64,000 nt of DNA from Fragilaria crotonensis. Its lineage: Eukaryota > Bacillariophyta > Fragilariophyceae > Fragilariales > Fragilariaceae. The stretch lies in NCBI GenBank assembly GCA_022925895.1, contig JAKSYS010000002.1:1-64000 (forward strand). The letters are read 5' to 3'. The notes under the pieces were generated by a model. That model did no database searches. It was given only the letters and a program-made list of their open reading frames with translations, and was not told the origin of the DNA. Below are positions 9,418 through 64,000 of the stretch, piece after piece. Position 1 is the stretch's first letter. Every line of letters begins with the position of its first letter. The position numbers and the translations under genes are program-made.

Positions 9418-9615
9418 CCCAGTTCACACCTACCATTCTTCCTCCAAGAAGAAAGCTAGCGTGTCACATTATGGAATGGAATTGGATGTGGCCCTTGTTC
9501 AATTGAGCCAGATGCTTCAGGACGTCGCGATTGAGTAGCGCGACCATGGCTACTGCAAGACGAACAGAACACAATGAATCACAAATGTGGTCAGCCTGCA
9601 GTCTGGCGTCCCGCA

Positions 9616-28253: not shown

Positions 28254-28841
28254 AGTCAAGGTACAGCAGCTGACAGCTGTTATTGTGCCGTTATTGACGT
28301 TGAAATTTCGTCCCCGCCAGCTGAGTCCCATCCGGCTTTGGATACGAAGATTCTCACGCCAACTGTATACGGCGAATCGCCAGTACGAAAACTACAGTTG
28401 TCCCGGACTGCTTTCCGCCCTCATAACCTCCTTTTCTACAACACCAATTTGTCCACATTAACCCAGTGCAATTCAACTGCAATTTCCCTTCATGTGCCAA
28501 CTAATTTCCAACATGTGTCCCTCATCATGTTGGCTAAGTCTGGCCATGTTGCAACAGTTGTTGCGACTGTCAATTCGCTCGTGACGGCGGAGTTGGAGCT
28601 GACATTTCAATGCCCTTATCAGTGGGATGAAGGCTTTGAATGTTCACTCCCACAACCCTCTAACTTCGCGAAAGTAGATCGGCAAGATTCAATCGGACCT
28701 GGATTGAATTGGTTCCTTCAAAGTGAAACCTAGAAATAAGCTCATAAGTTAAACAACACTAGAATTAAAAACTCTACGTTTGACCGAACCCGGATTTCTA
28801 CGAACTAGTACGCAGCCTTGATCACGCCGTGTACTTCGACT
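28254..28841 (+). repeat. Left LTR of the Ty1/copia element
   Basis: 588 bp, nearly identical to 35727-36315. The ends are AGTC...GACT, a perfect 4-base inverted pair, in place of the usual TG...CA. Both borders are unambiguous because flanking bases differ between the two LTRs. Confidence 0.92.
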
Positions 28842-29044
28842 GGTTATTTTCGCCCAATAATAAGACTTACCCTCTAACGCACTTTCCTCTCCGGCAAGCT
28901 CGTTTCAAGTTCCTTTCCAAGGAAGTTACGCTCCGCGTCAAGGCAGGTCTCCTCCGGCGATCCTGCGACAGCCCCACGTCTTCCCAAGACTAGGCTGATT
29001 CATTGCTCTCTGCCAACTCGAGTACGCAGTCAGCAATCTGTTGA

Positions 29045-30660
29045 GTGGTTGAAGATCTGCTTTCCAAGCCAAGACTCCAATCATCATGTCGGTTCCACCA
29101 TCTGAAGGCTCTACGTCCCCGACGAATCTTCCAGACGAACCTGTTGTTGGAATCCTCGACTGCTGTCGAAGGCCGCGGCAATCCAGAAGGATTCGAGATC
29201 TCCGATCCTGTCGACGTTCGCCTCACCGAGGCAATCGCTCAAGCCAGGACTCTTGCTACTGATGAAGAGTCTGTCTTGGAGTTCCCAACTCAATGACTGC
29301 CCCAGTGGAGCTCCCAGCTCCTTCAAGCTCCAAGCCTCTTGTTCCCTCATTGGGGAATCACTTTGGTGACCAAGGATGAATGGTCTGCTTGGACAGGTGG
29401 AAAGCCCAACCACACCTGGACAGGTTTGGATGGCTCCATTGCTCTCCTAGAGCACACCTCTCCCAACCAGCTCCGCCCTGTCTATGTTTCTGCAGCCCAG
29501 AAGGGCTACAACTTCAGGAGAACTGGGCACAAGATCTCCTTCAAGCCAAGTGATGATTTGATCAGCTTCCAGAATGTTGTCTGGGATCATCTCAAGGACA
29601 CTGGCATGGACTCCATTGCTTACCTCAGGGACCCAACTGACGACGCCAAGATGACTAACGTTATCAAGGCTCACGCCAGGTACACGGTCCAGTCGGCAAA
29701 GTTGTTGGCGGAAGCTCAAGTTCAACGCTACGACAAGTATGACCGACCAACGATATGGCAGCCAGGACCTATTTGCTTGCTTCACTCTCTACTGAGCTAA
29801 GCAATAAGGTGACTGAGAAGTTGGATGATTCTGACTCCTTCCCAGTTGTTTGGCTCCAGTTCCTCAAGTCCATCCAGTCCACCTCCATTGAGAGGTTTGA
29901 AGATCTCAAGGCCATCATCAAGGCCAGGCTCCCAAGTCAGTACTCTGGAGAGAACCTTGAACAATTGGCAGCTCACTTTCGCAAGGATGCAAATGAGTTG
30001 ACAACTGCTGGCCAGTATGACCACAACCTCACTCTGGCCATGCTCAAGATCTTTCTTTTGGCTGGTGGTTCTGGCAATGAGGACTTCCGCTTCCCTGAGA
30101 TCTGTCAAGCAGAACTTGGAGCAAGCTCTTTGGACATTGGATTCAAGGACAAGGAAGCTGCCAACCTTCACATGCAAGTCAACAAGCTGACCTACAAGGA
30201 CATCTGCGCTCACGCAGAGGATGCCTACAGGACGCTCTTTGACAGGAAGGAGTGGCCACCTGCACGTCACACTCGCGACTCCAAGGCTCCACCAGCTGCA
30301 TTCGGAAACATGGCGACTCCAATCACCAGAGCTGAGGTACTCAACCTCATCCAGTCCAAGGCCTCCAACAATGGTGCTGGACTTGCCAAGAAAGGAGTCT
30401 GTCACAAGTGCAACAAGCCTGGACACTGGTCGCGCGAATGCCCAGAGAACAACAAGGGCAAGGGCAGGAATGGGAATGGCAATGAAAGACCAAAGGATGT
30501 CAAGTCCTGGAAGTCTACTCCTCCTCCATCTGGAGCACCCCAAGTCAAGCAAGCCAATGGAAAGGCTTTCAACTGGTGCGCAAGCTGCAAGCGTTGGACT
30601 ACTACCCACGCAACGGCAACGCACACTGGAGTCAAGAAGAGCTCTGAGGGCCCTCAAGGT
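29045..30660 (+). mobile_element. Capsid (gag)-like region of the Ty1/copia element
   Basis: Encodes a copia-type capsid-like region with a CCHC zinc knuckle (CHKCNKPGHWSREC) at about 30400-30441, followed by a Lys/Gly-rich stretch. Frame is interrupted; the region is described only as a fossil part. Confidence 0.75.
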
Positions 30661-31749
30661 GTTGGTTCTGCAATCAACAATGTCTCTCTTGCCTTCGATC
30701 CATCGGTGTGGACCACGGAAATTGAGGTCGTCCCAAGTGTGACTGACGCGCTTTATCCTGCGCACCATGGTGACCCGGATCCTCCCGTACTCGTTCTACT
30801 GCTCACCTACGTGATGGCAATATTTTCAGTCCCGTTTGCAAAAACTATGTGGACCTCCACGCTGGAAATTATTCAACTCGCCATGGCGCATTTTAACGCC
30901 GTCGATTGGAGCCAAGTCATGGCAATCCTTCGAGCGCATGTCATGGTCGTTCGCCCGCACGTCTCGCAATTTTTGAGGCTCACCAGGAGGCGCTCATTGC
31001 TCCATTGCTTTGGGCCTTACTGGCCATGGTCGTACTGTTCTGGCTTCCTAAGCCCAGCTCAACATCGCCTGAGCCTGATCCTAAGGAGCTACCTTCTCGC
31101 CGCCATCGTCGTGCTCTCAAGCAACACAATCGCAAGGTCACACGACGCGCGAATGTTCCCAAGCCGGAAGTATTCGCTCCCATGGACTGCATCGCAGGTA
31201 CCCCATTAACTTGCGATCCATGGGACGCTACATTCGGAGGAATGCACCAACGTTGGTTGAACAACAGCAGCAAGTGCAGTTGAACGACCTTCACTCCAAG
31301 GTTGCAACTCTCCTTCAGCGTGTCGACTCGCTCAAGCGCTCCATTCCGCGATCAACTCACTGGACCTGCCGCCACTGCAACGATACAATCGTCCATGGGC
31401 CAACTGAACCTTGCCCCAAGCTCCGTAACACATCCCGCTCGCCATCGGATTTGTCGACGCAAGAGGAAGGGCCAAGGATCAACCACTGCGATGTCAACGA
31501 CGCCTACCTCGACGCTCCGCTTCGCCAGCAGCGACGCCGCGCCGCAGGCTTCCCAAGTCCAACGGCGTCTATCGCCCCGTCTCTCCCATTGGCTTCCAAG
31601 GCCTAGGGAACCATCAGTGGACCTCCAAGCAACTTCAAGCTGCTCGCAAGATGGCAATGCAAGTGAACATGGCTAAGTTTCCAAACGGCAACTACTCCAC
31701 AATCCTTCGCATGGCTCTCCAGTCAACCGACCGCTTCCGCGAATCCCTT

Positions 31750-34700
31750 CCCAAGGCTTCAACGTTTCCTGTCATTTGGGACTCTGGTGCAAGCATCTCG
31801 ATCACTCCTGACCGCAAGGACTTTGTTGGACCCATCAACACCCCTGGCCCTATCACTCAACTGCAGGGCATTGCAAAGGGACTCAGGATTGAAGGCCAAG
31901 GTCATGTTCTGTGGGCAATGCAAGATACTCTGGGCAACCTAAGGATGCTCAAGGTCCCAGCATACTTGGTGTCTTGCATCAAGGTCAGGCTCCTATCCAC
32001 CACAAGCTTGCTCCAAGCTTACCCTGGAGAGACCATCACCATTGAAGCTCATCAACTGACCTTGAGTGGCACCTCTGATGAAGCCAGAGGGCAACTCATT
32101 GCAAGAGTCAACCCTGACAACAACTTGCCTACCTCTGATGCACACCGCAGCTCAGATACTCCCAAGGCAGTTGCAGCTCTCAACATTACTCTCAACACTG
32201 TTCATGAGAGCAACCTCAACTTGACTGAAGCTGAGAAGGAGTTATTAAGGTGGCACCACCGCCTTGGACACCTTTCCTTTCGCAAGATCCAATTCATCAT
32301 GCGAACTGAGTCCTGAGTCGGAGTGAGTCGCATCGATCACTCCATACTGCTGCTTGCCGAATTGTCAACCCTCCCAAGTGTGCCGCATGCCAATATGGGA
32401 AGCAACATCAGCGACCAGCTCCTGCCAAGATCACAACTGTTATCAAGGATCGAGCTGGAGTTCTCAAGGCAGACAACTTGCTCCCTGGACAACAAGTCTC
32501 CATTGATCACTTCATTTGTGGAACAAAGGGAAGGCTCTTCTCTTCAGCTGGAAGGAGCTTGAACTCAGACATGTTTGCTGGTGGCTGCCTCTTCATTGAT
32601 CATGCTTCCAACTTTGTGCATGTTGAGTTTCAGAAGCATCTGAACACTCATGAGACTCTGAAGGCCAAGCAGAACTTTGAGTTGATGGCAAGGGACAGTG
32701 GAGTCATTCCACAATCCTATCTCTCTGACAATGGTGGAGCTTCACCTCAGCTAAGTTCACTGAGCACCTTGGAACTCTGAAGCAAGTCGTCAAGTTTGCT
32801 GGAGTTGGAGCTCACCATCACAATGGCCATGCTGAGAGGGCAATCCAAACGATCATGTCGATCGCTCGGACAATGATGCTCCATTCAGCGGTACATTGGC
32901 CAGATGTGGCTGATGCAACACTTTGGCCAATGGCAGTCTCCCATGCTATCTTTCTCCACAACCATGTTCCTGATTTGGCAACAGGTCTCTGTCCAAGTGA
33001 TGTCTTCACTAAGTCCAGATGGGAGCAAAGGAAGTATCATGATCTGCATGTGTGGGGATGTCCTGTGTATGCTCTTGAGAAACCATTGCAGATGGAAAGA
33101 AGCTGCCTCGCTGGAAGCCTCGGTCCATCCGCTGCGTCAACATGGGGCTCTCAAGAAGCATGCAAGCACAGTCCCCTTGGTTTTGAATCCAGAGACAGGG
33201 TACATCACTCCCCAATATCACATTGTGTTTGACGATTGGTTTGCAACGGTGGCTACTAATGTGGATGCCCTCCCGGATTTTAATACAACGCGTTGGGCCC
33301 GTTTGTTTGGCGACTCAAGATATCAGTTCCCATTCGATGACGACGACGACAATGATGCTACAGAGGAAGCGCGAATGGACTCCCAAGCTACAGAAGCCAT
33401 CAATGAGAACCAAACAAGAGTTGCTGCCTCCATGGATGAAGCTGTTGCAATTGAACAACTCCCAGTTCCTCCCTTGGCTGAGGCTCCACCCAGGACACCA
33501 ACTGTTCCACAGCCATTGCCAAGCTCTCCATTGCTCACTCCAAGGCCTCCAACTCCCATGATGTCTCAAACGAGGAGCAGTCTATCGATCCTCGGTCTCT
33601 CCAGTCTCCTCCAACGCCAGACATCAGAACTTCACCTCTGCAACGCCGTCCACACTCCAGCTCACAAGCCAAGGAAGAGACGCCACGCAAGGTCCCAGCT
33701 ACCCCGATCTCCCAGTTCATCAGCCAATCTTCTCCCCAGTTCGGGAGCAGACCCCAATGTCTGAAACGAGGAGAGTCCTGTTCCAGACAATGCATTCGCC
33801 CTTGACTCACCACGTGACGAGCAACCAGTCAAGTCGCCTCCGCCACCAACGTCTCCGCGCCGGTCCAACCGCATTCGCGCAGCACCACAACGCCTTGGAT
33901 ACGATAACACTCAAGGCCATGGATACTTTGCTTCTCCAAGTGCTTGGATCTTTGAGGAAAATGGAATCATCCTTTCCCCAACTGCCTTCAAGGCAGCTGC
34001 ATCTGATCCTGACACTCTGAGCTTTGACCAAGCTATGGCTGACATTGAGCATGTGACCAAGTGGATGGAGGCAGCTGCTAAGGAAGTGGCAAGCCTTGAG
34101 AAGAATGGGACTTGGAAGGAAGTCAGTATCCTTGAAGCCAAGACCAAGATTCTCCCAGGGACTTGGGTATTTCGGCGCAAGCGATCCCCAGATGGAGAAG
34201 TCACCAAGTACAAAGCGCTACTGTGTTCGAGGCGACCTTGAAGAAGGAGAACCTGAAACCTATGCCCCAGTTGTTGCTTGGAGTTCAGTTCGATTGTTCC
34301 TTGTCTTGTCCCTAACATTGGGATGGCAAACTTGCTCCATTGACTTCAGCAGTGCCTTTGTTCAAGCCAACCTAACTGACCCAGTCTGGATCCACATGCC
34401 AAGAGGCTTCAAGTCTGATCAGCCAAGCGACCAAAGGACTTGCCTACGACTTGTTAAGAGCCTCTACGGTCTCTCGGTTGCTCCCCGCCTTTGGTATCAA
34501 CACATTCGTGAAGCACTCCTCCTCCAAGGATTGAAGCAGAGTGCCACAGACTCATGCCTCTTGTACAGCAAGACCATCATGATTGTTCTCTATGTTGATG
34601 ATCTTGGGATTGCCTACTCCAACAAGAAGGATCTTGACAAACTGTTCCAGGATCTTACTGATTTGGGTTTGGAGTTCACTCGTGAAGGCACCTTCACTGA

Positions 34701-35585
34701 CTTTCTTGGAATCAAGTTTGTCAAGGATGAAGTCTCCAACACTGTCACCCTAACACAAAAGGGTTTGATTCAGAAGATCATAAAGGCAACAGGACTTCAA
34801 GACTGCAACCCCAACCACACTCCTGCTATGCAAGCATGCCTTGGGATTGACCCTGATGGAGAACCCATGGATGAGTTCTGGAACTACCGCTCTATTGTTG
34901 GAATGCTCTTGTACTTGTCAACAAACACAAGGCCAGACATCACATTTGCAGTAAGTCAAGTTGCCAGGTTCAATCATTCTCCCAAGAAGAGCCATGCCAT
35001 GGCAATCAAAACAATTGTCCGCTACTTGCACCGCACTGCTGACAAAGGAACTATTGTGACTCCACTGGAGACCTCTCTTGATTGTTATGTTGATGCTGAC
35101 TTTGCTGGCCTCCATGGTCGTGACCCTGATCATTCTGACACCAGCGCCAAGTCCCGCACCGGCTACATCATCACCCTTGGAGGTTGTCCAATTCTCTGGA
35201 AGTCTCAACTGCAAACAGAGATCTCCTGTCTACATTGGAATCTGAGTACTCTGCTCTCAGTGCAAGCATGAGGACTCTGTTGCCACTTCGTGATCTTCTT
35301 GGAGAAATCTGCAAGGAATTGACTCTGCCACCTGACTTCAAGTCTACCATTCGCTGCCGAGTCTTCGAAGACAACAATGGTGCTCTGCTTCTTGCTACCA
35401 AGCAACGCATTACTAATCGCACCAAGTACTTCCTGGTCAAATGGCACTTCTTCTGGCACCACGTTCGCAACGGAGATGTTGAAGTGCTCAAGATTGCAAC
35501 CACTGACCAGTTGGCTGACTACCTTACCAAGGGCCTCAATCGAGAAGTTTTCGAACGCATTCGAAAGCTTGCTCAAGGTTGGTGA
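31750..35585 (+). mobile_element. Pol-like region of the Ty1/copia element (protease, integrase, RT, RNase H)
   Basis: Recognisable parts in order: aspartic protease motif DSGAS near 31780; the pre-integrase zinc motif HHRLGHLSF near 32260; integrase core about 32470-33110; reverse transcriptase about 34100-34950 with YVDD near 34590; RNase H about 35090-35580. Integrase before reverse transcriptase is the copia order. The region is broken. Confidence 0.85.
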
Positions 35586-35726
35586 CACGCGGCACCGCCG
35601 CATTTGTGTTGGGTGGATTTAAGAGTGTTCCCTCTTATCCTGCAAGCCCATATGTTTATGGTTCATGTCCTACATTTTCACCACACCATCACTAATCTAT
35701 TTCTTGTTTCATTGAATGAGAGGGAG

Positions 35727-36315
35727 AGTCAAGGTACAGCAGCTGACAGCTGTTATTGTGCCGTTATTGACGTTGAAATTTCGTCCCCGCCAGCTGAGTC
35801 CCATCCGGCTTTGGATACGAAGATTCTCACGCCAACTGTATACGGCGAATCGCCAGTACGAAAACTACAGTTGTCCCGGACTGCTTTCCGCCCTCATAAC
35901 CTCCTTTTCTACAACACCAATTTGTCCACATTAACCCAGTGCAATTCAACTGCAATTTCCCTTCATGTGCCAACTAATTTCCAACATGTGTCCCTCATCA
36001 TGTTGGCTAAGTCTGGCCATGTTGCAACAGTTGTTGCGACTGTCAATTCGCTCGTTGACGGCGGAGTTGGAGCTGACATTTCAATGCCCTTATCAGTGGG
36101 ATGAAGGCTTTGAATGTTCACTCCCACAACCCTCTAACTTCGCGAAAGTAGATCGGCAAGATTCAATCGGACCTGGATTGAATTGGTTCCTTCAAAGTGA
36201 AACCTAGAAATAAGCTCATAAGTTAAACAACACTAGAATTTATAACTCTACGTTTGACCGAACCCGGATTTCTACGAACTAGTACGCAGCCTTGATCACG
36301 CCGTGTACTTCGACT
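35727..36315 (+). repeat. Right LTR of the Ty1/copia element
   Basis: 589 bp, matching the left LTR almost perfectly. It is preceded by a purine-rich tract (about 35714-35726) and followed by the AGTAC target duplication. Confidence 0.92.
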
Positions 36316-36320
36316 AGTAC

Positions 36321-36711
36321 TGTTCTAGTTTGGTAGAGTCACATACGACTGTCATAGGTCCAAAACGAATACGAACAGGAACTTGTACCACGTTCTCCAG
36401 TATGTATGACATATACCAGTACAGAGCATGATACCTACTAGTACCTAGTACAAGTACATGGCTCGACGTCTGCTCTCAGAACACTGTACCGGTAGCAGGG
36501 GGTACAGTATGGATACGGTACAGGACGCTACTACTTGTACCTGGTACCGTAGGTGGGAGTCCAATCGTTTTGTAGGGGAGATGGTTGTGTTGACAGCAAC
36601 AGCTTGCCCCATTGCCGAAGTCCGAGAACAATCCGGACTCTGACTACTTTGTTGCCACTAAAGCAGCCACCCTTCTCTCGTTCCAGCCGTCTTTTCGAGT
36701 CGAGAATAACC
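36321..36711. other. GTAC-rich spacer
   Basis: Very dense in GTAC, GGTAC and AGTAC words (for example 36380-36550). Contains the 5' region of the CID gene. No gene seen. Confidence 0.4.
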
Positions 36712-40813: not shown

Positions 40814-41242
40814 TTGGAGACGCAGCAGCAGGCACCCAGGCTCGAACACATCCCAATCAATGCAACCGTTCGTTGGGATGTTGGATGTTGGATCCTGAAA
40901 TGCTTGGTCGTCAAAATCAAATTTTTGATTTCAGCAAGTTCTCGCACATCGAGTGCTTACACTGTAACGATAGTACATTACTGTAGTATGAGACTGTACT
41001 CAGATTACTGTTAGTACAAGTACTAGTACCATCAGGCACAATTGTACCAGGTGCCAGTACCAGAGTGATTCCGGTTACAGGTCATGAAAACTATCTCAAC
41101 CTTAATTGTAGATCACACCGAGTGCCATAACTCCTCACTGGCAGCCTTATAACGATAGCAACCCTTATCCTGCATCAAATAAATGTCTTCAGTGCAATGC
41201 CAAGTCAGTCATAGGCCGGTACAGCCGATACATATTGGACCA
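40814..41242. other. Intergenic, GTAC-rich
   Basis: Holds the upstream region of the acidic unknown and the 3' region of TGS1. No gene seen. Confidence 0.4.
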
Positions 41243-42767
<1,525 letters not shown>

Positions 42768-42921
42768 GATTAGAATGCAAGGAAATGACGTCAATCATGA
42801 CGTCACAGTACTAACCCCTTCGCGTTCTACCTACGGGGATACAGTACTCCGGTAAGACAGTAGCTTAGGGAGAGCATGCTGATTGGTAGGGGGCTTGACG
42901 TCATTTCCTTGCATTCTAATC
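42768..42921. promoter_or_regulatory. 27-bp perfect inverted repeat carrying TGACGTCA sites
   Basis: Arms 42768-42794 and 42895-42921 are exact reverse complements, 100 bp apart. Each arm contains TGACGTCA (42786-42793 and 42896-42903), and a third TGACGTCA lies at 42798-42805. It may be a bZIP-bound regulatory hairpin or the remains of a small palindromic element. It sits between the divergent TGS1 and DUF6824 genes. Confidence 0.6.
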
Positions 42922-43661
42922 GGATCCGGGCCGGACCATTCCTACCCTTCTGCGATAAGGTGCTGACTCTGGGAAAAATATAGGTGGTCCTGTACTCCAG
43001 CACCAGAGTCCAGAGTCCAGAGTCTACCGGTAGAGTCTGCTCCTACCGGTACTAGTACCGGGTGGTCGAGAACGTATGGCATATGACATAGGATACGACA
43101 CGTAAGTCGAGTTTGTGAAAAAAATACTCCAGTAGATGTTAGTATCATGCCCATGTGGCGATACCTACTACCAGGTAGAACTCAATGTAGACGATGGCAA
43201 GTTGGTGGACGTTTGACTTGGTATTCTCGTTCACAGGAGTGGTGTAGAAACGATACAAATAAAAGCTCGATCGGCTCGATGAGGGCACACACACGTGCTC
43301 AGCAGTGGAAAACTAATACTGTAGTACCAGCATCGTTACGAAGTGGTTGATGTTGTAATCCCGAGAACAGGTTGTTGAAGTTTCAGTCACAGTAGGAATT
43401 ACATAAATGCGACTACGGCAGGTGGCAGGTGGCATTAGTAGAAAGCGAGTGACGTAGTGCCTAAGTACCGTCCCTGCATTCCGGTTTGTTCGGAATTTGA
43501 AAAAAGGATGTCTCCTCACGATGTCTGCTTGTTGTCCGTTGCAAAGGCCACTTTTGACGGATTGTGCACGGCACACACAGTGGCTGAACGAAGCCATATT
43601 CGCTCCGTCAGTCACACTTGACGGATGACCATATGAATGGACAGGGAAAGCACGCCCTCGC
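42922..43661. other. Upstream region of the DUF6824 gene
   Basis: About 740 bp with GTAC and ACCGGTA words; no gene seen. Confidence 0.35.
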
Positions 43662-45755
43662 ATGTATAATTGCATGTCCAATTTGCCCGTTGACACATCC
43701 AATGGCTTAATACTAACAAACATGAATGATTCTCAGTTAGAACAACAGCTCCATCAAGCTCAGGTTCTCGTTCCGCACGACAATGACGTCTTGCTCGGTC
43801 GAGGTGCCTTGATCAGCAAGCACCCAGGAAACAAGTGGCTTAGACGCCTCGTACAATCAAACAAAGAGCTGTATAGACAATGTCAGAAACACGATAAGTT
43901 GATTTTGGCCAAGAACATAGTCCAGATGGTTCATTTGCGTAATCCTCCTGGACGATTTCTTGAGCAATCCACTGGCTTGTGGAGGCCCGTTTCAAACGCG
44001 GTGGCAGTACGTAAAACATCGCAAGCACTTAGGGAAAAGACTCGTAAGGGTCAAAGCGCAGCTGTTACCAATGAAGCTGCCCAGCAAATGACGTCGGCTC
44101 ATCGGGCACAAGAGTTCCGACTACTACTGCCAATTGTGGCGCAGAACGCACGCGGACCGGCACAAGAGCTCTGTCAACTAATGCCTACTAGTGAGGCACA
44201 GAACACTCTCGGAGATTACAGTTCTGCGTATTTAAAGAGCGATGTACCAACCATGGTGCCGCAAAGTCTGCAACCAGTGTCCTTTTCGGTTTTGAGACCC
44301 ATCAAAACGCGGACTGATCCTATTCTGTCTCCAATTGAACGGTATACCAGGAGTCTTCTCACAACAAATTCAAAAACCATGGAGGAAAAGGCACCACCAG
44401 AATCAACGTCTGCTCACACGTCGTTGAAAATGGTCAACGACCAGTTTTCTCTGAAGGGTCAAAAGGATGGATCCCACAATAGAACCTTCGTGCGAAATAC
44501 GATTGATGGGCCTTTCGAAGCGACGCAGCTCCTGCTACCGAATGACACCCGGCTTGGACACCCCCGGGGGATGGAACATATTGCGTTCGCGAATCAGCGC
44601 GAGGCGCAATTCAGTCAAAGGGAAGTCGGCGCGAGTGATCTTCAACTGCCTAGCGAAGAACGCCCTCGCGCCCAATTCGAGAATGCAATAGCATCGCGCC
44701 AAAGCGGAGACGAGACCACTTCAACTTCCTCGAACAGCAGAATCTCTGCACACGTGAGACGTTCTCCTCTGTCCCCCTGCTTCGATAGGATTCCCTCCCA
44801 ATCTGAAACGCGTCCTTCGCCTTTCTCCTCGGGTAGGGGGTCAATTGATGTGCCTGCTGACCCCGGAAAGCAAACAGCGAGCATACCTCAAATGAGTCTA
44901 CCACCATCCCTTTTGCGGCAGTTTCGTAGACATAACGTTACCTCTGAAGTCGAACCGGCAATTCTGCCGCAAGCAGAGTTACTGCTTCGATCAAGATATG
45001 CAAATCAGGAAACAGTCGTGTCGTCTATAATAGATAATCTTCACAACGACACGTGCTATTTCTCTACAAAACAGGCGATGTCGGATGATAAGAAAGTCGA
45101 AGATAACAACAGCGGACTTGCACCATTTGTTCTCGGCGATCGTGTCATCGAGATGAACAACAATCAGATACAGTCTATGGAATCAACACTTCCCCAGATC
45201 CCCGGTGATTCAGGAAAAGGAACCTCCGGTAGGGTTGATTTGGGGAGTCGTGCCCTAGAACTTACCCTTGGAGCACCTTTCAGCAATACGACTAATTCGA
45301 AAAGTTCTCCAAACGAAGTCGATGATACGGGGTCAGCTCGCAACAAAAGCAACGAGATTGCTCCGCTGTCCTTGGCAAGGGCCAGTTCATCGGTGGAAGA
45401 TGTGTGGGGAACGCTCTCCACCTCAGACGAGCGAATTACCCACCACGAGTATGACTGTGCTTCGACATTCTGTTCGGACGCTAACTCGAATGAAGGATCA
45501 CCTATTGGCGCCCGTGGAGGAATCGTGAACAATGCTGGTCGTCATACAGTATCTGACGGCTTGAGTTGCAGTCCCGCGTTCGATGGGATAAATCGATTGA
45601 ATTCGCATCTTGAATCTCAACAACCGTTGGAGATGATCGTCGGTGCTGATTTGATGCTGCCATCGCCAATGCGTCAGCATCCAACGTGGACGGGAATCAA
45701 TCTAGCAATACTTGCGAAGATGAAACTGCTCCACGACCCCACTGACGGACTTTGA
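43662..45755 (+). CDS. DUF6824-domain protein
   Basis: The first ~130 residues carry the domain that is abundant in diatoms: DNDVLLGRGALISKHPGNKW then a LVQSNKELYRQ segment, LILAKNIVQMV, GRFLEQSTGLWRPVSNAVAV and RKTSQALREK. In the family this is DxVL.GRG..N.H.GN..FR.LV ... GRFL ... W..V.D..A..K.SQALRE. Its biochemical role is not known; the basic, helical nature and the SQALRE end suggest DNA binding, which is inference. The remaining ~550 residues are Ser/Pro/Gln-rich and low in structure. A second ATG at residue 21 (MNDSQLEQQ) could be the true start. Confidence 0.75.
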   Translation: MYNCMSNLPVDTSNGLILTNMNDSQLEQQLHQAQVLVPHDNDVLLGRGALISKHPGNKWLRRLVQSNKELYRQCQKHDKLILAKNIVQMVHLRNPPGRFLEQSTGLWRPVSNAVAVRKTSQALREKTRKGQSAAVTNEAAQQMTSAHRAQEFRLLLPIVAQNARGPAQELCQLMPTSEAQNTLGDYSSAYLKSDVPTMVPQSLQPVSFSVLRPIKTRTDPILSPIERYTRSLLTTNSKTMEEKAPPESTSAHTSLKMVNDQFSLKGQKDGSHNRTFVRNTIDGPFEATQLLLPNDTRLGHPRGMEHIAFANQREAQFSQREVGASDLQLPSEERPRAQFENAIASRQSGDETTSTSSNSRISAHVRRSPLSPCFDRIPSQSETRPSPFSSGRGSIDVPADPGKQTASIPQMSLPPSLLRQFRRHNVTSEVEPAILPQAELLLRSRYANQETVVSSIIDNLHNDTCYFSTKQAMSDDKKVEDNNSGLAPFVLGDRVIEMNNNQIQSMESTLPQIPGDSGKGTSGRVDLGSRALELTLGAPFSNTTNSKSSPNEVDDTGSARNKSNEIAPLSLARASSSVEDVWGTLSTSDERITHHEYDCASTFCSDANSNEGSPIGARGGIVNNAGRHTVSDGLSCSPAFDGINRLNSHLESQQPLEMIVGADLMLPSPMRQHPTWTGINLAILAKMKLLHDPTDGL

Positions 45756-50500: not shown

Positions 50501-50584
50501 CGACAATGGCAGGATTCGAACCTACGCGGGGGAACCCCAGCAGATTTCGAATCTGCCGCCTTAACCCCCCTCGGCCACATTGTC
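50501..50584 (-). tRNA. tRNA-Ser(CGA)
   Basis: 84 nt on the minus strand. The acceptor stem pairs GACAATG with CATTGTC plus discriminator G. The A box (TGGCCGAGGGG) and B box (GGTTCGAATCC) are present. The anticodon loop is TTCGAAA within the stem GCAGA/TCTGC, giving anticodon CGA, which reads serine UCG. The long variable arm (CTGGGGTTCCCCCGCGTA) is the class II serine form. A T-rich stretch follows the gene as a Pol III terminator. No intron. Confidence 0.95.
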
Positions 50585-54833: not shown

Positions 54834-55275
54834 GATGAGGTTTCTTTGGGTGGGAGGGAGTTTTGCAGATCTGTCACTCGACCCTCCAGATGATGATGGT
54901 TGGTGGTGACTGGTGCACAGCGAGGAAACCCAAGGGCTGACGCCGGTTGGACAAATTCCTCCACAATTTCTACCACACAATAAATACCCTGTGTACATAC
55001 TCGTGTATAGCGTATGTAGCGTACTACGAGTTCATAGGACAACATGCCAGGCAAGAACAATAGTAGTTACCAGTACTGGTACATGGGTGGACTGCCAGTA
55101 TACGGTATGCATGTAACATAGTAGGGGGGATGCATGCATAATATGATCAGGGTTTGACAGTACGTCCCCTGTGGTCACCGGAATAGTATAGTACACTAAC
55201 GCCTCGGAGAGTCCCTCTTTAGTATACTAATAGTACATAGTACTTCTACCTTCGTACTCCAGAGTACCAAACTAG
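54834..55275. other. Spacer before the minisatellite
   Basis: About 440 bp, GTAC-rich, with the variant sequence TATACTAATAGTACATAG near 55212-55230 that resembles the repeat units which follow. No gene. Confidence 0.4.
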
Positions 55276-55682
55276 TGTACTATTAGTGTACTATTAGTGT
55301 ACTATTAGTGTACTATTAGTGTACTATTAGTGTACTATTAGTGTACTATTAGTGTACTATTAGTGTACTATTAGTGTACTATTAGTGTACTATTAGTGTA
55401 CTATTAGTGTACTATTAGTGTACTATTAGTGTACTATTAGTGTACTATTAGTGTACTATTAGTGTACTATTAGTGTACTATTAGTGTACTATTAGTGTAC
55501 TATTAGTGTACTATTAGTGTACTATTAGTGTACTATTAGTGTACTATTAGTGTACTATTAGTGTACTATTAGTGTACTATTAGTGTACTATTAGTGTACT
55601 ATTAGTGTACTATTAGTGTACTATTAGTGTACTATTAGTGTACTATTAGTGTACTATTAGTGTACTATTAGTGTACTATTAG
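55276..55682 (-). repeat. 37 perfect copies of an 11-bp repeat; tail of the LINE
   Basis: The unit TGTACTATTAG (plus strand) repeats exactly 37 times in 407 bp without a mismatch. On the strand of the adjacent LINE this is (CTAATAGTACA)n and lies at the element's 3' end. LINE families with short tandem tails are known (for example the I and CR1 groups), so the repeat may be the retrotransposon tail, possibly expanded. Variants (TATACTAATAG) follow at 55683-55700. Confidence 0.9.
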
Positions 55683-55705
55683 TATACTAATAGTATACTA
55701 AATGC

Positions 55706-55766
55706 ACATGAAGGCGCGCCCCGCGCGTCGTTCATGTTCTTAGTTCTTTTCGCCCGTAGGGCGAAA
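55706..55766. other. Two hairpins at the LINE 3' end
   Basis: One hairpin pairs ACATGAA (55706-55712) with TTCATGT (55731-55737) around a GC-rich core. The next pairs TTTCGCCC (55748-55755) with GGGCGAAA (55759-55766), loop GTA, followed by eight T. LINE reverse transcriptases often recognise 3' stem-loops in their own RNA, so these could be the recognition structure. That is inference. Confidence 0.6.
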
Positions 55767-56008
55767 TTTTTTTTCTATCATCTTCATGTAGAATTGCTGT
55801 TTCAGTGTGGAGAAGAAGTGCATATCAGCACATAGATTATCAAAATCTAAGACTGATGCCTACTGTTATCAAAACTGATTTTACAAAATTTGCAGCACAT
55901 TTTGTTGCAAGTTTTGTGTGACAAGCCTGTTTACCATCAAAACAAATTGTTAATTTATATTTATTAGTCATAAATGAGGAACATTCATAATGTGTAGAAA
56001 TCTGCTTA

Positions 56009-56370
56009 TCAGGTTTTCATCATACAGTCAAACAAATGCCTGAGTGTCTAATCATGAGCATAACAATCATTCTACTACACAACATTGTGCAATGAATGTC
56101 ATTCCTTGGGCTTCAAATTAGGGACACCTTCTGGATTTGCCCCATCTTGGGCTGCAATCACAATTTCTGACATGGACAAGAATGACAGCTGCTCATCAGG
56201 TTTTCATCATGCTGTCAAACAAATGCCTGAGTATCTTACTATCAGGTGCATTGACAACAATCATTCATTGAATGTCATTCCTTGGGTCTCAAACTGGGGA
56301 CAAGCAACTGCCAATTTTGCCCCATCATGTGCTGCAATCACAATCTCTGACATCAAGGATATCAGTACTA
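56009..56370. repeat. Imperfect tandem duplication (~187-bp unit) in the LINE 3' region
   Basis: Copies begin with TCAGGTTTTCATCAT at 56009 and 56196. Both continue through TCAAACAAATGCCTGAGT, an AATGTCATTCCTTGGG part and GCTGCAATCACAAT, with substitutions and small indels. It lies between the last coding part of the LINE (56589) and its tail. Confidence 0.8.
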
Positions 56371-56588
56371 AACTCTTCATTACATGTTTATAACCGATCT
56401 ATTTCTAGGTCGGTGCGTTTCATGGTGCTGGCCTCACGGGCGGGCGAACAGGTTAGGGGCAGATCGAGACAAAAAAGCAATAGCTTGCAAGCTATGTAGC
56501 AGCGGGAAGATAACTATCTCAAGCGTGGAAGGCACCGAAGAGAGTTCAAAGAAGCAAATGCATAGTGCATTGCAGCAGAAGGAGTGAG

Positions 56589-57857
56589 TCAGACACCATC
56601 GACAGGCGATGACCTCCTGTAGTAGGATGTGATGGACGATTGTTGAAGTATGTGGGGCACGGAGGGTTGATCAGAAGGCAGCAAAGCCGGACCGGAGGGT
56701 GCCTCATGTTGTAGTTGAGCATAAGGAAAATATGTTGAAAGAAGCTGTTGTCTTGCTCCCTTCGCAGAGGAGTGGAAAGTAGCGAGACGTGCGAGCCGAA
56801 GCCATCGTTGTCTCTGCCGGGGAGACTGGCGGAGTCGCGTCTCCAGAGGTAGAGTAAAGTAGCTCTGCAGAATAGGTGAGAACGTGTGTTGCAAAGCATT
56901 TAGTTGGGATATGGAGTGGTTTAGCGCGGCATGCACAATGAGAAGACTGTCAGATCCATATTCATGTAGAACTTCATTTCTACTCTTCCAGATGGCGAGA
57001 GTATAATCTTGGACTGCCGAGATCACCTTAGTTAAGGTTTTCTTGGACTGACAACGGCGATCATGTTGGTGCATCCGTTGTATGTCCGCCGTGGGATATA
57101 TAAGGCCCCAGTCCAGACTTACAAAACCACGAAACAGGTGAGTCCAGCCAATGTTTGTTTGACTCTCAAGTGCCTGATCGATCGCTGCCTGAATGTCATG
57201 GCCGGAGTCCCCAGGTGTCAGAACGATGGGATCTAATGGAGTCTTTGTCCATGTTTGGATGACTCGAAGGAGGAAGGTCCCAGCGTCGCCAGATTTGGAC
57301 AGAACTGTTCGTAACAACGGAATCGCTGCGTCGTACCGAAACTTCTGTGCACGTGGGTCAATGCATGTAAGCATGTGGATAAAGTCTTCATCCTGGTGGC
57401 AGTATGGGCAGCAGCGTGCAATTTCCTGAGTATTCCCTTTGGACCCAAATTTAACTCGTTGCGAACCAAGATGGAGCCAATTGTGCACAATTTTTGACCG
57501 GGTGACCGGGTTCGTGAGGTTCGGTTTCCGAGCACAGGTCATAAAATCATCCCATGCAATACAGGACCAGGTGTGGTCAGACCATTTGTACTTTCGCTGG
57601 AGAAAGGTGCGATGGTGGGTTAAACTGATACACTCGCGAAGTCGTGCCACATAGTGCGATGAAATTATGTGTTGGTCATATTGGACGGCAACCTCAAGGT
57701 TCCGAGGAATCAGTGGGACGGAGAGCGTGCGCTCAGCTTCATGCAGCTCCTGCCTCTGTAGTTGAGTAGTAGCCATGGTGTCGCATAAAACATTGAGTTG
57801 CGCGGGAAAAGGAAAGTTTCTCCGAGGCAGTCGTTTGTTCTTGATGACTGTGCACAT
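56589..57857 (-). CDS. LINE C-terminal region with zinc motif
   Basis: Starts in the family motif PAQLNVLCDTMA and contains the cysteine/histidine motif CCPYCHQDEDFIHMLTC (zf-RVT type), as in many LINE C-termini. The stop is at 56589-56591. It is in a different frame from the RNase H part. Confidence 0.8.
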   Translation of the reverse strand: MCTVIKNKRLPRRNFPFPAQLNVLCDTMATTQLQRQELHEAERTLSVPLIPRNLEVAVQYDQHIISSHYVARLRECISLTHHRTFLQRKYKWSDHTWSCIAWDDFMTCARKPNLTNPVTRSKIVHNWLHLGSQRVKFGSKGNTQEIARCCPYCHQDEDFIHMLTCIDPRAQKFRYDAAIPLLRTVLSKSGDAGTFLLRVIQTWTKTPLDPIVLTPGDSGHDIQAAIDQALESQTNIGWTHLFRGFVSLDWGLIYPTADIQRMHQHDRRCQSKKTLTKVISAVQDYTLAIWKSRNEVLHEYGSDSLLIVHAALNHSISQLNALQHTFSPILQSYFTLPLETRLRQSPRQRQRWLRLARLATFHSSAKGARQQLLSTYFPYAQLQHEAPSGPALLPSDQPSVPHILQQSSITSYYRRSSPVDGV

Positions 57858-58377
57858 GATTCAAACGAACGTGCTCAAGCACGTGATGCGCAGAGCTCAT
57901 GGTAGACAAGAGATCGGCGTGGTTGGGGAGCCGTCGTATGGGGATAAGATCTCGGATAGTCTTGACATTGCTGATCGCGCCGGTGCTATCGACATACAAA
58001 CGAAAAGTACAGCAAATGTCAACTTGATGATACGTGGCGAGTTCATCCACATATAAAATGAGGGAGGCAATTGCAGCAGCTTCGCTGCGGAACGAACTTT
58101 GACATCTGTGCCATCCATCCACCGGACCAGCATTAAGAACGAGTTTTTCGCGGCCAGGAGAGCATATGATCCAAGAGAACGAGCCGTTGTGGTGTCGTTT
58201 GCCCCCATCTGTTCCAATTCGCAGTGTGCATGGAGTCTGGAGATATTGGAGCAGCGCTTGTTCCGCATCGCACTCTGCAAAGGTGTGGGATGAGATAAGT
58301 CTGCGCTCCGCTGGGGGTAGTTGTTGTATCCACTCGGCAAAGGAAGTGGCTGGAGGTGGTATACTTGCAAAAGGCAC
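57739..58377 (-). CDS. LINE RNase H region
   Basis: RNase H signature residues are visible: D in GTDGG, E in FRSEAAAIASL, D in YVDSTGAI and H in HVHSHQ. The open frame is offset from both neighbours, showing two frameshifts in this copy. Confidence 0.8.
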   Translation of the reverse strand: MPFASIPPPATSFAEWIQQLPPAERRLISSHTFAECDAEQALLQYLQTPCTLRIGTDGGKRHHNGSFSWIICSPGREKLVLNAGPVDGWHRCQSSFRSEAAAIASLILYVDELATYHQVDICCTFRLYVDSTGAISNVKTIRDLIPIRRLPNHADLLSTMSSAHHVLEHVRLNHVHSHQEQTTASEKLSFSRATQCFMRHHGYYSTTEAGAA

Positions 58378-59590
58378 TTGTCGAGCTCGTCGCTATCAAA
58401 ATATGGCAGCCCTCGACGTCAGTTGGGACTGCCTGAGACGGGATTGTTGCTGTGTACCAATTGGGTTTGACCTCGTAGAAGACCGATTCCCGTAACCTAG
58501 TAGAGACCAGGTGTTTGGGAAAGTGAACCGAGATATGGCGTTCGTTTGTCGCATCTCCCCTTGGTATCGAGGGATCGCTGCGATACAGGTTAGAGTCCCA
58601 TATCATATTGCCCCATCGCATCGTAGACTCCGCTGTCCAGGAGCCCAGGGGAGTGAGAAGACAAAGAGAAGAAGTAGTTGCCGATGAGTGTAGTAGATGT
58701 CGTAGAAGCCTGCGCCACAATCCGCATTGGTAGCTTGTTGGTTGCTCCTGCCGTGCGAAAGTGATATGACTTACACGATCCGGAATCGGATATCCTTTCC
58801 ATGTGCATGGATGTATCCTGAGCCCATCCGCGGTCGCAATGTCGCTTACGGTTGTGACACCAAGGAAGATTCGTACCAAATTGAGATCGATTAATTCCTG
58901 TTTTTTAAGTCCCATTGTAATAGCCATGTCCATGAGCAGAGAGTCGCCCTCTCGAGAGATCAGGGGTAACCGATTCTTTTTTACATATATCGAAATGTTG
59001 TGCTCGGCACAGAACTTCCTCAGGTGGAGTATCCAACAGTCGGTAAGATACGTTAATTCAATTTGTGGGGACGATAGGAGATCAAACGAAACCCCGGATT
59101 CAATTTGCAAATGACGGAGCGAGATTAACATAACCTGTCCCACTTTATGTTGCGTGCCCACATAATCGATAAATGATTGAATATGTGTCAGGCCTTGCTC
59201 AACTCTTAGATCAATGAGACCGCACCCAAACACCGAGGAGGGTGCAAACGCCACAGCATGAGGATAGTGTCGATTGTACCCCAATTTGTTCAATATACTT
59301 GCTGTCATAAGCGACTGTATTTTGTGTAGCGTACCGCTTGACATCGATGTTATGGGAAGCGAGTATCGAACGGACGGAAGGTAAAAGGAATTGTAGAACA
59401 ATTTTGACATTGCAGGGGAGAGGGAGGATTGTAGTAGACGCCGCGCCATGCCGTCCACTTTAATCCTCAGCGTAGCTGCATGTTGCGCAAATGTACCCGT
59501 GAAGTTCATGTACACTCCAAGACCTTTCAACTCGGTATCATTCGAGTGCTGACGAATAATATGATACTCGGGGTTGGTGCCGCTGGTCAT
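58133..59590 (-). CDS. LINE region between RT and RNase H (thumb/connection)
   Basis: The frame can be followed upstream as GGSLNLSKCSWTLQYWHWTK leading to LLMTSGTNPEYHII, the typical RT palm-thumb transition of such LINEs, and LGVYMNFTGT. It begins in a frame different from the RT core, so a frameshift separates them near 59720. After about 58390 the reading frame is no longer the coding one. Confidence 0.75.
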   Translation of the reverse strand: MTSGTNPEYHIIRQHSNDTELKGLGVYMNFTGTFAQHAATLRIKVDGMARRLLQSSLSPAMSKLFYNSFYLPSVRYSLPITSMSSGTLHKIQSLMTASILNKLGYNRHYPHAVAFAPSSVFGCGLIDLRVEQGLTHIQSFIDYVGTQHKVGQVMLISLRHLQIESGVSFDLLSSPQIELTYLTDCWILHLRKFCAEHNISIYVKKNRLPLISREGDSLLMDMAITMGLKKQELIDLNLVRIFLGVTTVSDIATADGLRIHPCTWKGYPIPDRVSHITFARQEQPTSYQCGLWRRLLRHLLHSSATTSSLCLLTPLGSWTAESTMRWGNMIWDSNLYRSDPSIPRGDATNERHISVHFPKHLVSTRLRESVFYEVKPNWYTATIPSQAVPTDVEGCHILIATSSTSAFCKYTTSSHFLCRVDTTTTPSGAQTYLIPHLCRVRCGTSAAPISPDSMHTANWNRWGQTTPQRLVLLDHMLSWPRKTRS

Positions 59591-59639
59591 AAGAAGTGGT
59601 GGATCATACTTAGAGATTGGAAGGAGATGAGGTCGCCCT

Positions 59640-60990
59640 TTAGTCCAATGCCAGTATTGCAGGGTCCACGAGCACTTCGATAGATTCAGGCTGCCGCCTG
59701 AGATATGAAGAAGCGATTCCCACAGTTGTCCCGCCCTTCGTAGCTATTTGTTCGACGAGGTCCTCAACCGAAAGTTCTCCCTTAGCGTCGAGGATGCCTT
59801 GATTTGTATCGTCCACAAAAGCGCCGACGCGCCATTTCGCACTGAATTCATTCCACGGATCCTGGAACGCCAACCCGGGAATATCGTCTTCATCGGATAT
59901 GCGATCGAGTGCGTTTAGTAGTATCACTACTAGGCCCAGCCATATGGCTGGCGAGGCACCGCTGCCTTGCCCGGTGCCAAAGAGTGGTTCCGTTTCCGTG
60001 CTCGAGTATTCCATCGGAGAGATGCCATACGCGTGTTTAACCAAATAGCGCATGAGCCTCAGTGTCTCAGCCTGACATTTGATAGCATTTTCTGGCATTC
60101 CCAGGCGCCGACAAGCTAACATGCCCAGTGACGTAACAATGCGGTCGTAGCACCCTGTCGCGTCATTATCCATGTGAGCACTGTTCGCCTTTGTTTGTCG
60201 AATTAGATCCTTCTCCAGCCTAGCAAGGAAGAGGGCATCGGTTGTCATTCTGCGAGGTCGCGATCCATGTTGTTGATCATTTAACGCCTGAGCTTGCTCA
60301 GCATTTTTTACCATTCTTCGGCCGTAAATAATTTTTAGAAAAAGATTGTAGTCGGCCTCGAAGAGGTGGATCACTCTTAGTCTGGTTAGGTACGGTCGGC
60401 CAGCATCTTTTTCAATGAGTGGTGTCACCGAGTGAGTCCATCGATCAGGGGCAAAACCATTTGTAATAGGCAAATTCAGTAGATCGGTGTGCAGGGCTGC
60501 TACGTCCAGATCAAGGATTGCCGTCCGATAGTGCCCAAGGTGTCGACCAGATGGGGAGGTGGATGTTGATTCCTTCCATGTTTTGACGGAGTTGATGTAC
60601 TGCTCAGGTGTGATGGTCGTATCAATGGAGTCCACTGAGTCGGGACGTTGACATTCCTCCAAAAATACTCTAAGTTCGCGCTGCATTGGGATGCCAAGAT
60701 GAGCGATGCAATCCCCTTTGATAATGGCCGAGGCAGTCTCCGTCAGTCCATTATAGCCAACCATATCAAATAGCTCGCCGTGCCCAAAGGGTGTATCCTT
60801 CGCTTGTCTGAACCAAGATCGATTGTAGCGAAGTAGCTCATCTTCAATGGCATCGTCGCAGTCGAGTAGTGTCTTATATTCCACCGAAGTTTTGTCCGAT
60901 TGGGCCATTGCAATTAGTTGGGTAGGAGATACAGTACCATCGGCATCGCAGAACCGCGATGCCACTTTGTGGTCTTTAACGCCTGATGGG
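59640..60990 (-). CDS. LINE reverse transcriptase core
   Basis: Contains RT motifs: PSGRHLGHYRTAI, SVTPLIEKDAGRPYLTRLRV, GSRPRRMTTDALFL, the fingers/palm DNDATGCYDRI, GTGQGSGASPAIW, and the active site FVDDTN (family xVDD). It continues in frame from the endonuclease across the nested MITE. Confidence 0.88.
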
Positions 60991-61562
60991 CAGGGGTGTC
61001 CTATTTAAGGCGACCGGGCCGGCGCGCCTAGCAGCGCCTTAATTAGTTAATATAGGCGCTTTTTTGGACCTTCAAAAAGGCGGTGTAAGGCGGTGGGGGT
61101 TAGGGGTTAGGGTTTTGGGGATTTAGAGTTAAGGTTTATGACTGTACAGTGCAGCTGCAACGCTCATCCCCACTTCAGTCCATCAAGAAAATGAAACTGC
61201 CAACAGACCTCACAGCTCACCATGAACAATCATGGATGTAACTTCAATTGTTTCAGCTTTTTTCACTGCAACAGTTGAGTTCCAAGTCCAAATTAAGCAT
61301 CTGGCTACTGGCTACGGATATACTGGAGTACTGTACAATATGGTACTGTATCCATGTTTTTACTGTATGTTGTTTATAATCTACTGGAGTACTGTCGTAC
61401 TATGCTACGAGAGTGCTCCGTACAAACTTACACGTACAATTCTACGCGATGGTATGTTTGTAGCGTAGAATCTACAGGACCTTATTTAAGGCGCTTTTTC
61501 AAGGCTTCAAAAAGGCGATTGGCCCCAAAATTAAGGCGCCCGCCTTAAATAGGACACCCCTG
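60991..61562. mobile_element. Non-autonomous hAT-like MITE nested in the LINE
   Basis: 572 bp with 22-bp perfect terminal inverted repeats starting CAGGGGTGTCC and ending in AAGGCG. The flanking 8-bp direct repeat CTGATGGG (60983-60990 and 61563-61570) is the target duplication expected for hAT. Both ends carry several copies of the subterminal motif AAGGCG in both orientations, likely transposase binding sites. No transposase is encoded; an internal frame (61232-61468) has no match. A telomere-like GGGGTTAGGGTT stretch lies near 61100. Confidence 0.93.
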
Positions 61563-63354
61563 CTGATGGGACAAAAAGCTTTGACAATCCGCCAGCATGA
61601 GTCCCTGCTTTCATTGACGCGTGAATGACACGAAAGGGTGTGCGCATATTTTCGACATTTATAAGGCGTTCCATTCTACGAATTTTTTTGTCATTTTCCG
61701 TTCGAGCACCAGCCTTGATCTCATCCTCCGAGAATTTCAGATTATGATAGCTTTCCAGAGTACCCAAGAGGTGAACCGCACGATGATCATACGCAGTGTT
61801 GCGTATGGTGCGAAGCAGTTTTATTGCCGCCTTCCATTTCTGTTTCAGGGATACAGCATCAGAACCGAGGTCGTTGTCTGCAGGGTCAATGTTAAGAGAT
61901 TGGAGTCGCAGTCGAAGCTTTGCCAAGGCAGATTGAAGACACAGACTCTTTTCAACTTCTCTCAGACGAAGATGCCAGTAGCGTGCAAGGAGCCCAGCTT
62001 CTCGCAGTTTTGGTGACCATGCATACTTCCCAGCCGGGCGTCGTGCCTCTTTTTCTGCATGAAGCATTCCTCGCGTCACATCTCTATCAATAGCATCAAA
62101 GCATACTTTACATTGCGCGGACGTGAGAGTGGGGGCCACTGTTGTGAGGCCCTTCACTCGATCCCAAAGACGATGATCATCTGCGTACTGCTTGAAAGCA
62201 GTAAGGTATCTATCAACAGATGGTTGATCTTCGGAACGAAGGACTCGTGCTTTCGTAGGAGCGATGGAGGCAACCGAGCCCATCAGCTTGGTAAAGTCGA
62301 GATCAATGAAAAGACCGCGGTGTTTCGAAAACACACCATTATCATATGCATTGTAACCTGCACGACAGATAGCCGAGGCAACTGCAGCTGAGCCAAACAT
62401 GAAGTCAATGCGCCTGTCCACCCCATACTTGTACGTTGCTGGCGGATCTGACGGGCCAAGGAGATGGAGGTCGGTGAGCGTACATTCGTCGATGAGATGC
62501 GCAAGACCGAAGTGTTTGTCTTGACCCAGCGTCTCATTTGCATCGAGAGAAACGATCACGTCATAGCCTTTGGATTGCAAATTATTAACAAAGAGGATAA
62601 TATCAATAATGAACTGTTTGCGAACATTCGGGTTGGATACTCCTTGGGAGAGGAGAAGGGAATGTTGCTGGTCAAAGAATCCGAATCCACCGGTTGGTTG
62701 TTGTCGGGGACTGCGATACGCCGTAAGAATGGCGAGACGTTTACCTCGCTTTCCAAGATAGCATAAACCTGACCACCTTCCAAGGCCTGATGGATCAACG
62801 AGGGGTATGCCTGTACTGCAGGATGACCATCGGCCTGTTGTTGCCATAAAAGTTCCACCTGGTTGGTAGCCACTGGAGCCAGAAGTATAGGTTTCGGGCA
62901 GTGTACTGGACGAACACGCACTGCGAGCCGAGTGGAAGTGATTTCCTATCGGACTCTGCAGGCTTCGGCGAACAGATGGCTGAGAGAAGTCCAAACCGGG
63001 ATCTGCCCAACAGAAAGTGCCAACTTTGAGTTGAGCCATACTAGAGACGTACAGAGCAATCTCGTCAACATCCTTTCTGAGACCATCTATGTTCTGAAAA
63101 TAAATTCGATGAAGTTCTCCCGGATCATCGTGGATAGAGTCGCCCCACGTGTCGTCTGGTGGTGTCGTGCTTGTAGGGGACGTTGGAAAGAAATCAAACA
63201 AGGTGTTTGCTTTGTTTGTCGGGAGTGCGGGTGATGCAGGGTTGGAGTCAGATGAGTCATACAACCGCTGCTGACTGTCTAGAGGGGCACAGATGGTATC
63301 GCTCCCGGGAGCAGTAACCAAATGTGCCAACGCGAGGGCGTGAAAGACTAACAT
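61563..63354 (-). CDS. LINE endonuclease (APE/EEP fold), ORF2 start
   Basis: From ATG 63354. Endonuclease marks include YFQNIDGLRKDVDE (the N of the first motif), VIVSLDANETLG, RRIDFMFGS and SKHRGLFIDLDF (near the SDH motif). The upstream ORF1 stop TAG (63348-63350) overlaps the ATG of this frame within ATGTTAG. Confidence 0.82.
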
Positions 63355-64000
63355 GGGTCCCCTCCCCCTGAGCCCGTGATTTCATTGTATTGGAGGCTCA
63401 AGGTGGATGTGGATGGTGACTTTGTTGGAGTTTCCGCTGCGCGGCGTTTGAGGGGGTTGGATTTCTTTGGTGTACCGAGGAGATCCAGGGTAGAGCCGCT
63501 ATCGGACTCAGGAGGAAATAGGAGTATACCTTGCATGCCGTGATGGATGTCATTCGGAAGTAGGTGGGGAGAGGGCTTCTGTCGTGGCCAAGGTGGTGGA
63601 GCATCGTGTTTGGCAGCTGTTGATGCAGATTGTGAACTAGTTTTCAATGTTGGCGATGTATGGTCCTTTCTCACCATGATTGCCTTAAACATGTCCTTGA
63701 TTTCCTCCAGCGATGATTCGAACTTGTCAAGCCGACTGTGAGCAGAGGCTGCGGTCAACCCGGATTGTGACGAAGAACGTGATGCTTTGGACTTCGCTGA
63801 CTTCGATGCAGTGGGAGAGTCAACAGAGTTTGTTCCCGACCGAAGGGCCAGTTGAGCTTCAAGAATCTCAATGCGCTTACGTTGGTTGATCTCCGTGGAG
63901 TTCACTTTGGTTGTCGTCTTTCCCTTTGTGTTCGAAAGCCAAGTTTCCTGAAGGGGTTTCTTCCATGCAATCGACCCCTTGGGAAGAGTAGCGCCTGCGG
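63348..64000 (-). CDS. LINE ORF1 with coiled coil, partial
   Basis: The frame is open to the window edge. After GSIAWKKPLQETWLSN comes a helical/coiled-coil part (INQRKRIEILEAQLALRSG), a Ser-rich linker and a second helix (LDKFESSLEEIKDMFKAIMV), then a Pro/Ser-rich end. ORF1 proteins of LINEs bind RNA; no zinc knuckle is seen in this part. The product continues beyond 64000. Confidence 0.75.
   Translation of the reverse strand, partial: AGATLPKGSIAWKKPLQETWLSNTKGKTTTKVNSTEINQRKRIEILEAQLALRSGTNSVDSPTASKSAKSKASRSSSQSGLTAASAHSRLDKFESSLEEIKDMFKAIMVRKDHTSPTLKTSSQSASTAAKHDAPPPWPRQKPSPHLLPNDIHHGMQGILLFPPESDSGSTLDLLGTPKKSNPLKRRAAETPTKSPSTSTLSLQYNEITGSGGGDPC

Follow-up and report, generated by a model that had tools for sequence, protein, structure and literature searches.

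The window, by which we mean the whole 64-kb stretch of DNA that was analysed, reads as nuclear DNA from a diatom or a close stramenopile. Among the eight ORFs searched against Pfam were a chlorophyll a/b-binding-family protein (3820-4536, E 1.9e-37) and a DUF6824 protein (43662-45755, E 1.2e-24), the latter family being typical of diatoms. The sole match of an Rfam search was an 84-nt tRNA gene on the minus strand (50501-50584, 55.5 bits). Also present in the window are a Copia element (28254-36318, RVT_2), whose LTRs are identical at 586 of 589 positions and whose reading frames are nonetheless broken, a MITE-like intergenic inverted pair (42758-42931) with 37-bp arms that are 92% alike and about 100 bp apart, and a 70 bp direct repeat (5484-5785), 87% identical at a spacing of 232 bp.

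A broken LINE-like element occupies the minus strand from the end of the window at 64000 down to a stop codon at 56589, and its 5' end lies beyond the window. Its coding part consists of the following pieces, together with one nested insert:

63348-63998, minus strand: end of an upstream, ORF1-like open reading frame, which runs off the window
61531-63381, minus strand: APE-endonuclease-like piece (QNIDGL, DANE, RRID, SKHR), which runs into the nested insert
60991-61562, no strand assigned: nested hAT-like non-autonomous insert of 572 bp, terminal inverted repeat CAGGGGTGTCC... (CAGGGGTGTCCTATTTAAGGCG), 8-bp duplication CCCATCAG
59640-61004, minus strand: reverse-transcriptase-like piece (DATGCYD, GTGQGSGASP, FVDD, in order)
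58133-59743, minus strand: piece connecting reverse transcriptase to RNase H, in a frame that differs from its neighbours
57739-58392, minus strand: RNase H-like piece (TDGG, SEAAA, VDS, HSH, in order), again in a different frame
56589-57860, minus strand: last ORF piece, carrying a CxxC-x7-H-x4-C knuckle and, towards its C-terminal end, two PIP-box-like motifs

The ORF1-like frame and a possible ORF2 ATG overlap by 7 nt (ATGTTAG, 63348-63354), and overlaps of this type suit termination-reinitiation in some LINEs. The endonuclease, reverse transcriptase (RT), RNase H and knuckle are assigned from motifs of general knowledge, and by these motifs the domains follow each other in the expected order (EN-RT-RNase H-CCHC). 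Within the RT piece, motifs A, B and C begin at residues 281 (DATGCYD), 343 (GTGQGSGASP) and 396 (FVDD) of 454, an order that was reached in 0 of 20000 shuffles using patterns that were shaped with the LINE sequence in view. When five of the LINE pieces were searched against Pfam at E up to 1, no RT, endonuclease or RNase H family was obtained and the sole match was the unrelated, sub-threshold TPR_CcmH_CycH (E 0.011); the five pieces exclusive of the C-terminal one likewise gave none of these families at E up to 10, with the unrelated CLEC16A_C (E 1.6) as the sole match. A PDB sequence search returned no matches for the RT piece and one unrelated chain (E 0.19) for the endonuclease piece, and single-sequence AlphaFold models for the LINE were unusable (mean pLDDT 39.4 and 35.0). 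Because no curated profile recognises any piece, nor the PDB search the RT and endonuclease pieces, the name LINE refers here to the ordered motifs. Judged by these, the element would be a LINE-like non-LTR retrotransposon with an APE endonuclease, an RT and an RNase H. With regard to LTRs, no repeat of the LINE 3' region was found elsewhere within the window, beyond which the 5' end of the element lies.

The two PIP-box-like motifs (QQLLSTYF and QSSITSYY) are located within the last 60 residues of the final ORF piece (56592-56771, minus strand). None of 20000 shuffles of these 60 residues had such a pair, and a fraction of 0.00015 did when all 423 residues were shuffled, figures that are flattering because the second motif was sought after the first had been noticed. 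In human LINE-1, a PIP box of ORF2p is placed between the endonuclease and the RT (PMC10830420).

The stop codon is followed by an 886-base 3' region, which bears an AT-rich duplication and has two hairpins at its end, and then by a tandem array. The features of this end, and of the flank outside it, are:

55997-56357, minus strand: a block of about 180 bases present twice, the copies being about 74% identical and spaced 187 at one end
55748-55766, minus strand: hairpin 1, with an 8-bp stem and a 3-nt loop
55706-55737, minus strand: hairpin 2, of 7+1+5 bp, in which an A bulges out five pairs away from the loop
55681-55702, minus strand: TTTAGTATACT and ATTAGTATACT, a graded pair of variant units confined to the hairpin side
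55276-55682, minus strand: 37 perfect copies of an 11-bp unit, which reads CTAATAGTACA on the LINE strand
55219-55237, plus strand: perfect 19-nt inverted copy of the LINE-side edge of the array, about 36 bases outside the array

The order on the LINE strand is thus stop codon, duplicated AT-rich region, hairpin 1, hairpin 2, three bases and array, which confirms the succession given in a preliminary description of this DNA, including the 37 error-free units. The tandem duplication of about 187 bp noted there is likewise real with respect to its 187-base spacing, and its divergence makes it old: copies 55997-56180 and 56184-56357 agree in 144 of 195 alignment columns (a gapped BLAST piece gave 75.6% over 176 columns).

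Perfect 11-base periodicity runs from 55273 to 55683 and contains 37 exact units of TGTACTATTAG (plus strand). Tandem Repeats Finder reported 38.9 copies at 55273-55700 with 99% matches and a score of 835, the other two rows for the window scoring 57. Phased on the LINE strand, the array begins with TTTAGTATACT and ATTAGTATACT (55702-55681) and continues as 37 x AATAGTACACT (55680-55274). The outer edge is abrupt, with 6, 11 and 9 mismatches in the three 11-mers that follow the last perfect unit, and the sequence beyond it is unrelated (CTAGTTTGGTACTC...). Nothing array-like was found in the 301 bases on the hairpin side, where the scores are attained by 117 and 488 of 500 shuffles. Exceptional folding of the single-stranded unit was considered and rejected, as 86 of 300 permutations of it gave folds just as good.

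Both hairpins are predicted, and they adjoin the array as the preliminary description had them, hairpin 2 standing three bases from the first variant unit. The 74-nt segment 55775-55702 has a predicted fold of -27.5 kcal/mol (shuffle mean -15.9, z = -4.46), with 0 of 200 shuffles as good. In a longer fold the start of the first variant unit pairs with the outer stem of hairpin 2 (ACUAAG/UUUAGU); the fold of 55660-55790 has z = -7.54 (0 of 200 shuffles), over a stretch that includes some of the array, which is itself self-folding. A scan for stem-loops of at least 8 perfect pairs, a loop of 3-8 and at least 4 G or C yielded 15 in the window outside the array, overlapping registers counted separately, and hairpin 1 is among them. 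No second occurrence of hairpin 1 or hairpin 2 was found in the window at up to 3 mismatches.

Relatives of the LINE were searched for in collections of viral and prokaryotic contigs, and none was found in the 17 loci obtained; because these collections are of viruses and prokaryotes, the missing relatives say little. With the RT piece, 2 pattern-matching stretches were found in the viral contigs and 9 in the prokaryotic contigs, of which none was confirmed. Degenerate RT-motif patterns gave 0, 1 and 0 stretches in the viral contigs and 15 in the prokaryotic contigs, and the best tblastn match of six LINE pieces to these 16 loci had E 0.047, so none of them shows a relative. Neither two units of the tail nor the 19-mer of the array edge had a match in the viral contigs. 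The 19-mer of hairpin 1 was found at a single locus of the viral contigs, in the core of a longer hairpin; the second-best match of this locus to the window has E 0.39. Among the literature matches listed, within a scope that mostly leaves subscription papers outside, an 11-bp LINE tail and the tails of diatom LINEs are unnamed in titles and abstract openings.

The copy as assembled is, by its reading frames, dead. From the RT piece onward there are three frame changes, all in the same direction (frames 2, 0, 1, 2 along the minus strand), and the hAT-like insert splits the endonuclease-RT ORF. The insert appears to have entered a single open frame, since its 572 bp plus the duplication equal 1 modulo 3, matching the offset of the pieces. 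Frame changes may arise or be inherited quickly, because the Copia element with near-identical LTRs is also frame-broken, and those of the LINE could include assembly errors. A recent expansion of the array, as suggested in the preliminary description, found no independent support, given the three frame changes, the nested insert and the UTR duplication of about 74% identity. We also rejected the perfection of the array as proof of its age, in that 407 bases would remain unchanged by chance with a probability of 0.44 at 0.2% divergence, 0.13 at 0.5% and 0.02 at 1%. A perfect array inside a broken copy leans mildly towards later homogenisation.

We think it somewhat probable that the LINE has the array as its 3' tail. 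This reading is preferred because the array touches the hairpins, because imperfect units are found on the hairpin side only, and because the outer edge breaks directly after a perfect unit. The predicted pairing of the first variant unit with hairpin 2, the 301 bases free of array-like sequence on the hairpin side and the likeness to UnaL2 described below also speak for it. The preliminary description had read the array in the same way, and the anatomy (stop codon, 3' region, adjoining hairpins and hairpin-side variants) fits; the recency attached to that reading does not stand, and the GTAC words and the inverted copy discussed below point to the host. As a tail, the array could have arisen as follows. 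The LINE RNA would have ended in the two hairpins plus a few 11-nt units, and the element's RT would have recognised the hairpins and begun at the last unit on a nicked target. Repeated backward slips would have come first, and copying inward across the older variants only afterwards. Slippage of this one-sided kind would produce outer units free of errors, variants beside the hairpin alone and a sharp boundary with the target; replication slippage could later have extended or homogenised the array. Recognition of the hairpins, slippage and a tail that belongs to a family rather than to this single copy are what we infer from the arrangement.

A LINE tail does not predict the 19-nt inverted copy of the array edge. 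Its Smith-Waterman score of 31 was reached by 0 of 500 shuffles of the flank, and the best of 629 tiles outside the array scored 26. In direct orientation the array edge matches the flank over 17 nt, and 17 of 500 shuffles reach the flank's direct score. A second member of the family lying tail to tail in the flank was considered; the 117 bases before the 19-nt copy fold, with no match to hairpin 1 or 2. The inverted copy might be accounted for by a GTAC-rich host stretch or by a MITE-like element.

The first of these belongs to a possible, on balance unlikely, explanation by which the array is a host minisatellite, expanded through DNA replication slippage out of GTAC-rich intergenic DNA where the LINE has its 3' junction, or by which the LINE landed beside, or targets, such repeats; the hairpins would then be the true end of the LINE and the array would be non-element sequence. 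GTAC and AGTAC words run through the flank and the array and are rare in the LINE 3' region. Over 16 intergenic segments, the array flank among them, GTAC has a density of 8.3 per kb, and in that flank by itself of 15.9 per kb, compared with a single occurrence in the 886-base LINE 3' region (1.1 per kb) and 2.7-3.3 per kb in the remaining LINE. Because GTAC is common in host intergenic DNA and occurs once in the 3' region, the change of style falls at the inner edge of the array. Across the intergenic segments the density ranges from 0.9 per kb (8517-9573) to 42.7 per kb (36319-36552), and coding sequence has about 3. One of the 16 intergenic segments, at 0.9 per kb, is as GTAC-poor as the LINE. 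AGTA/TACT behaves likewise, at 15.0 per kb in intergenic DNA, 27.1 in the flank and 6.8 in the LINE 3' region; TAGTA/TACTA has no matching depletion (4.1 per kb intergenic vs 3.4 in the 3' region). Under Markov models of order 1-3, one unit favours host over LINE by 1.1-1.4 nats and host over the LINE 3' region by 0.5-0.8 nats, so that by this measure the composition of the array appears to lean weakly towards the host intergenic style.

A host origin is further favoured by a partial array-like stretch in intergenic DNA (40973-41028, Smith-Waterman score 26), and error-free units, in a copy whose frame changes three times and which bears a nested insert, agree with ongoing homogenisation. Against it, the array abuts strong hairpins, and variants are located at the LINE side only, where an old host array would be expected to be worn at both ends. 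The exact 11-mer unit is moreover absent from the window elsewhere, save for an inverted 12-nt match near the array (55188-55199).

A further possibility, an improbable one, places the array within a separate MITE-like or fold-back element of about 486 bp (55217-55702) that would have inverted ends TTTAGTATACT...AATAGTACA and would have inserted where the LINE ends or close by. In its favour, the ends match in inverted orientation over 20 nt if one 11-bp unit is skipped, or 19 nt ungapped, and both start at TTTAG with a possible TA duplication, but the array edge is nearly palindromic and also has the 17-nt direct match, so the inverted ends may be accidental, and no second copy of such an element was found within the window.

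Returning to the array as a LINE tail, the 3' end is real and well-formed, and its unit is unusual. If the tail belongs to a family, its 11-nt unit would exceed in length those of the poly(A), TAA and TGTAA tails named in the literature cited here, it would supply diatom genomes with minisatellites, and it would offer a test of whether the length of slippage follows hairpin recognition. If the array is host sequence, it would be an ordinary minisatellite beside a broken LINE. A bolder proposal, which we regard as speculative and doubtful, is that a highly diverged diatom LINE lineage makes its own long minisatellite tails: a two-hairpin end would cause the RT to slip in 11-nt steps, each roughly a turn of an RNA-DNA hybrid, and 11-bp minisatellites would thereby be seeded genome-wide, while the PIP-box-like C-terminus may hold the slipping enzyme on PCNA. 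As for affiliation, the Ambal clade (Repbase) is a candidate and at present a lead; one study has a relatively high proportion of Ambal annotated in the diatom Pleurosigma pacificum (PMC12803021).

Known LINEs with repeated 3' ends resemble the Fragilaria element to different degrees. LINEs that end in TAA or TGTAA repeats are described in PMC3747384 and PMC5135761, and the (TAA)n of the Drosophila I factor is, according to the former, likewise a tandem end other than poly(A), with a unit of 3 nt. Hebe, from bdelloid rotifers, has 72-bp tandem repeats in the 3' UTR with a copy number of 1-4 (PMC2861651); these differ in being inside the UTR, before a poly(A) tail, and are thus closer to the 187-base-spaced duplication than to the array. 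The nearest likeness is to UnaL2 of the eel (L2 clade), whose tail, according to PMC3747384 and PMC5135761, consists of a stem-loop and (TGTAA)n, both of which are needed, and for which template slippage was proposed. As in the stringent tail of the UnaL2 type, a stem-loop directly before a short tandem unit is present here, as a predicted fold in one sequence. UnaL2 differs in its 5-nt unit, whereas the array described here has an 11-nt unit in 37 copies, two hairpins, a diatom-like host and a hairpin recognition that is putative.
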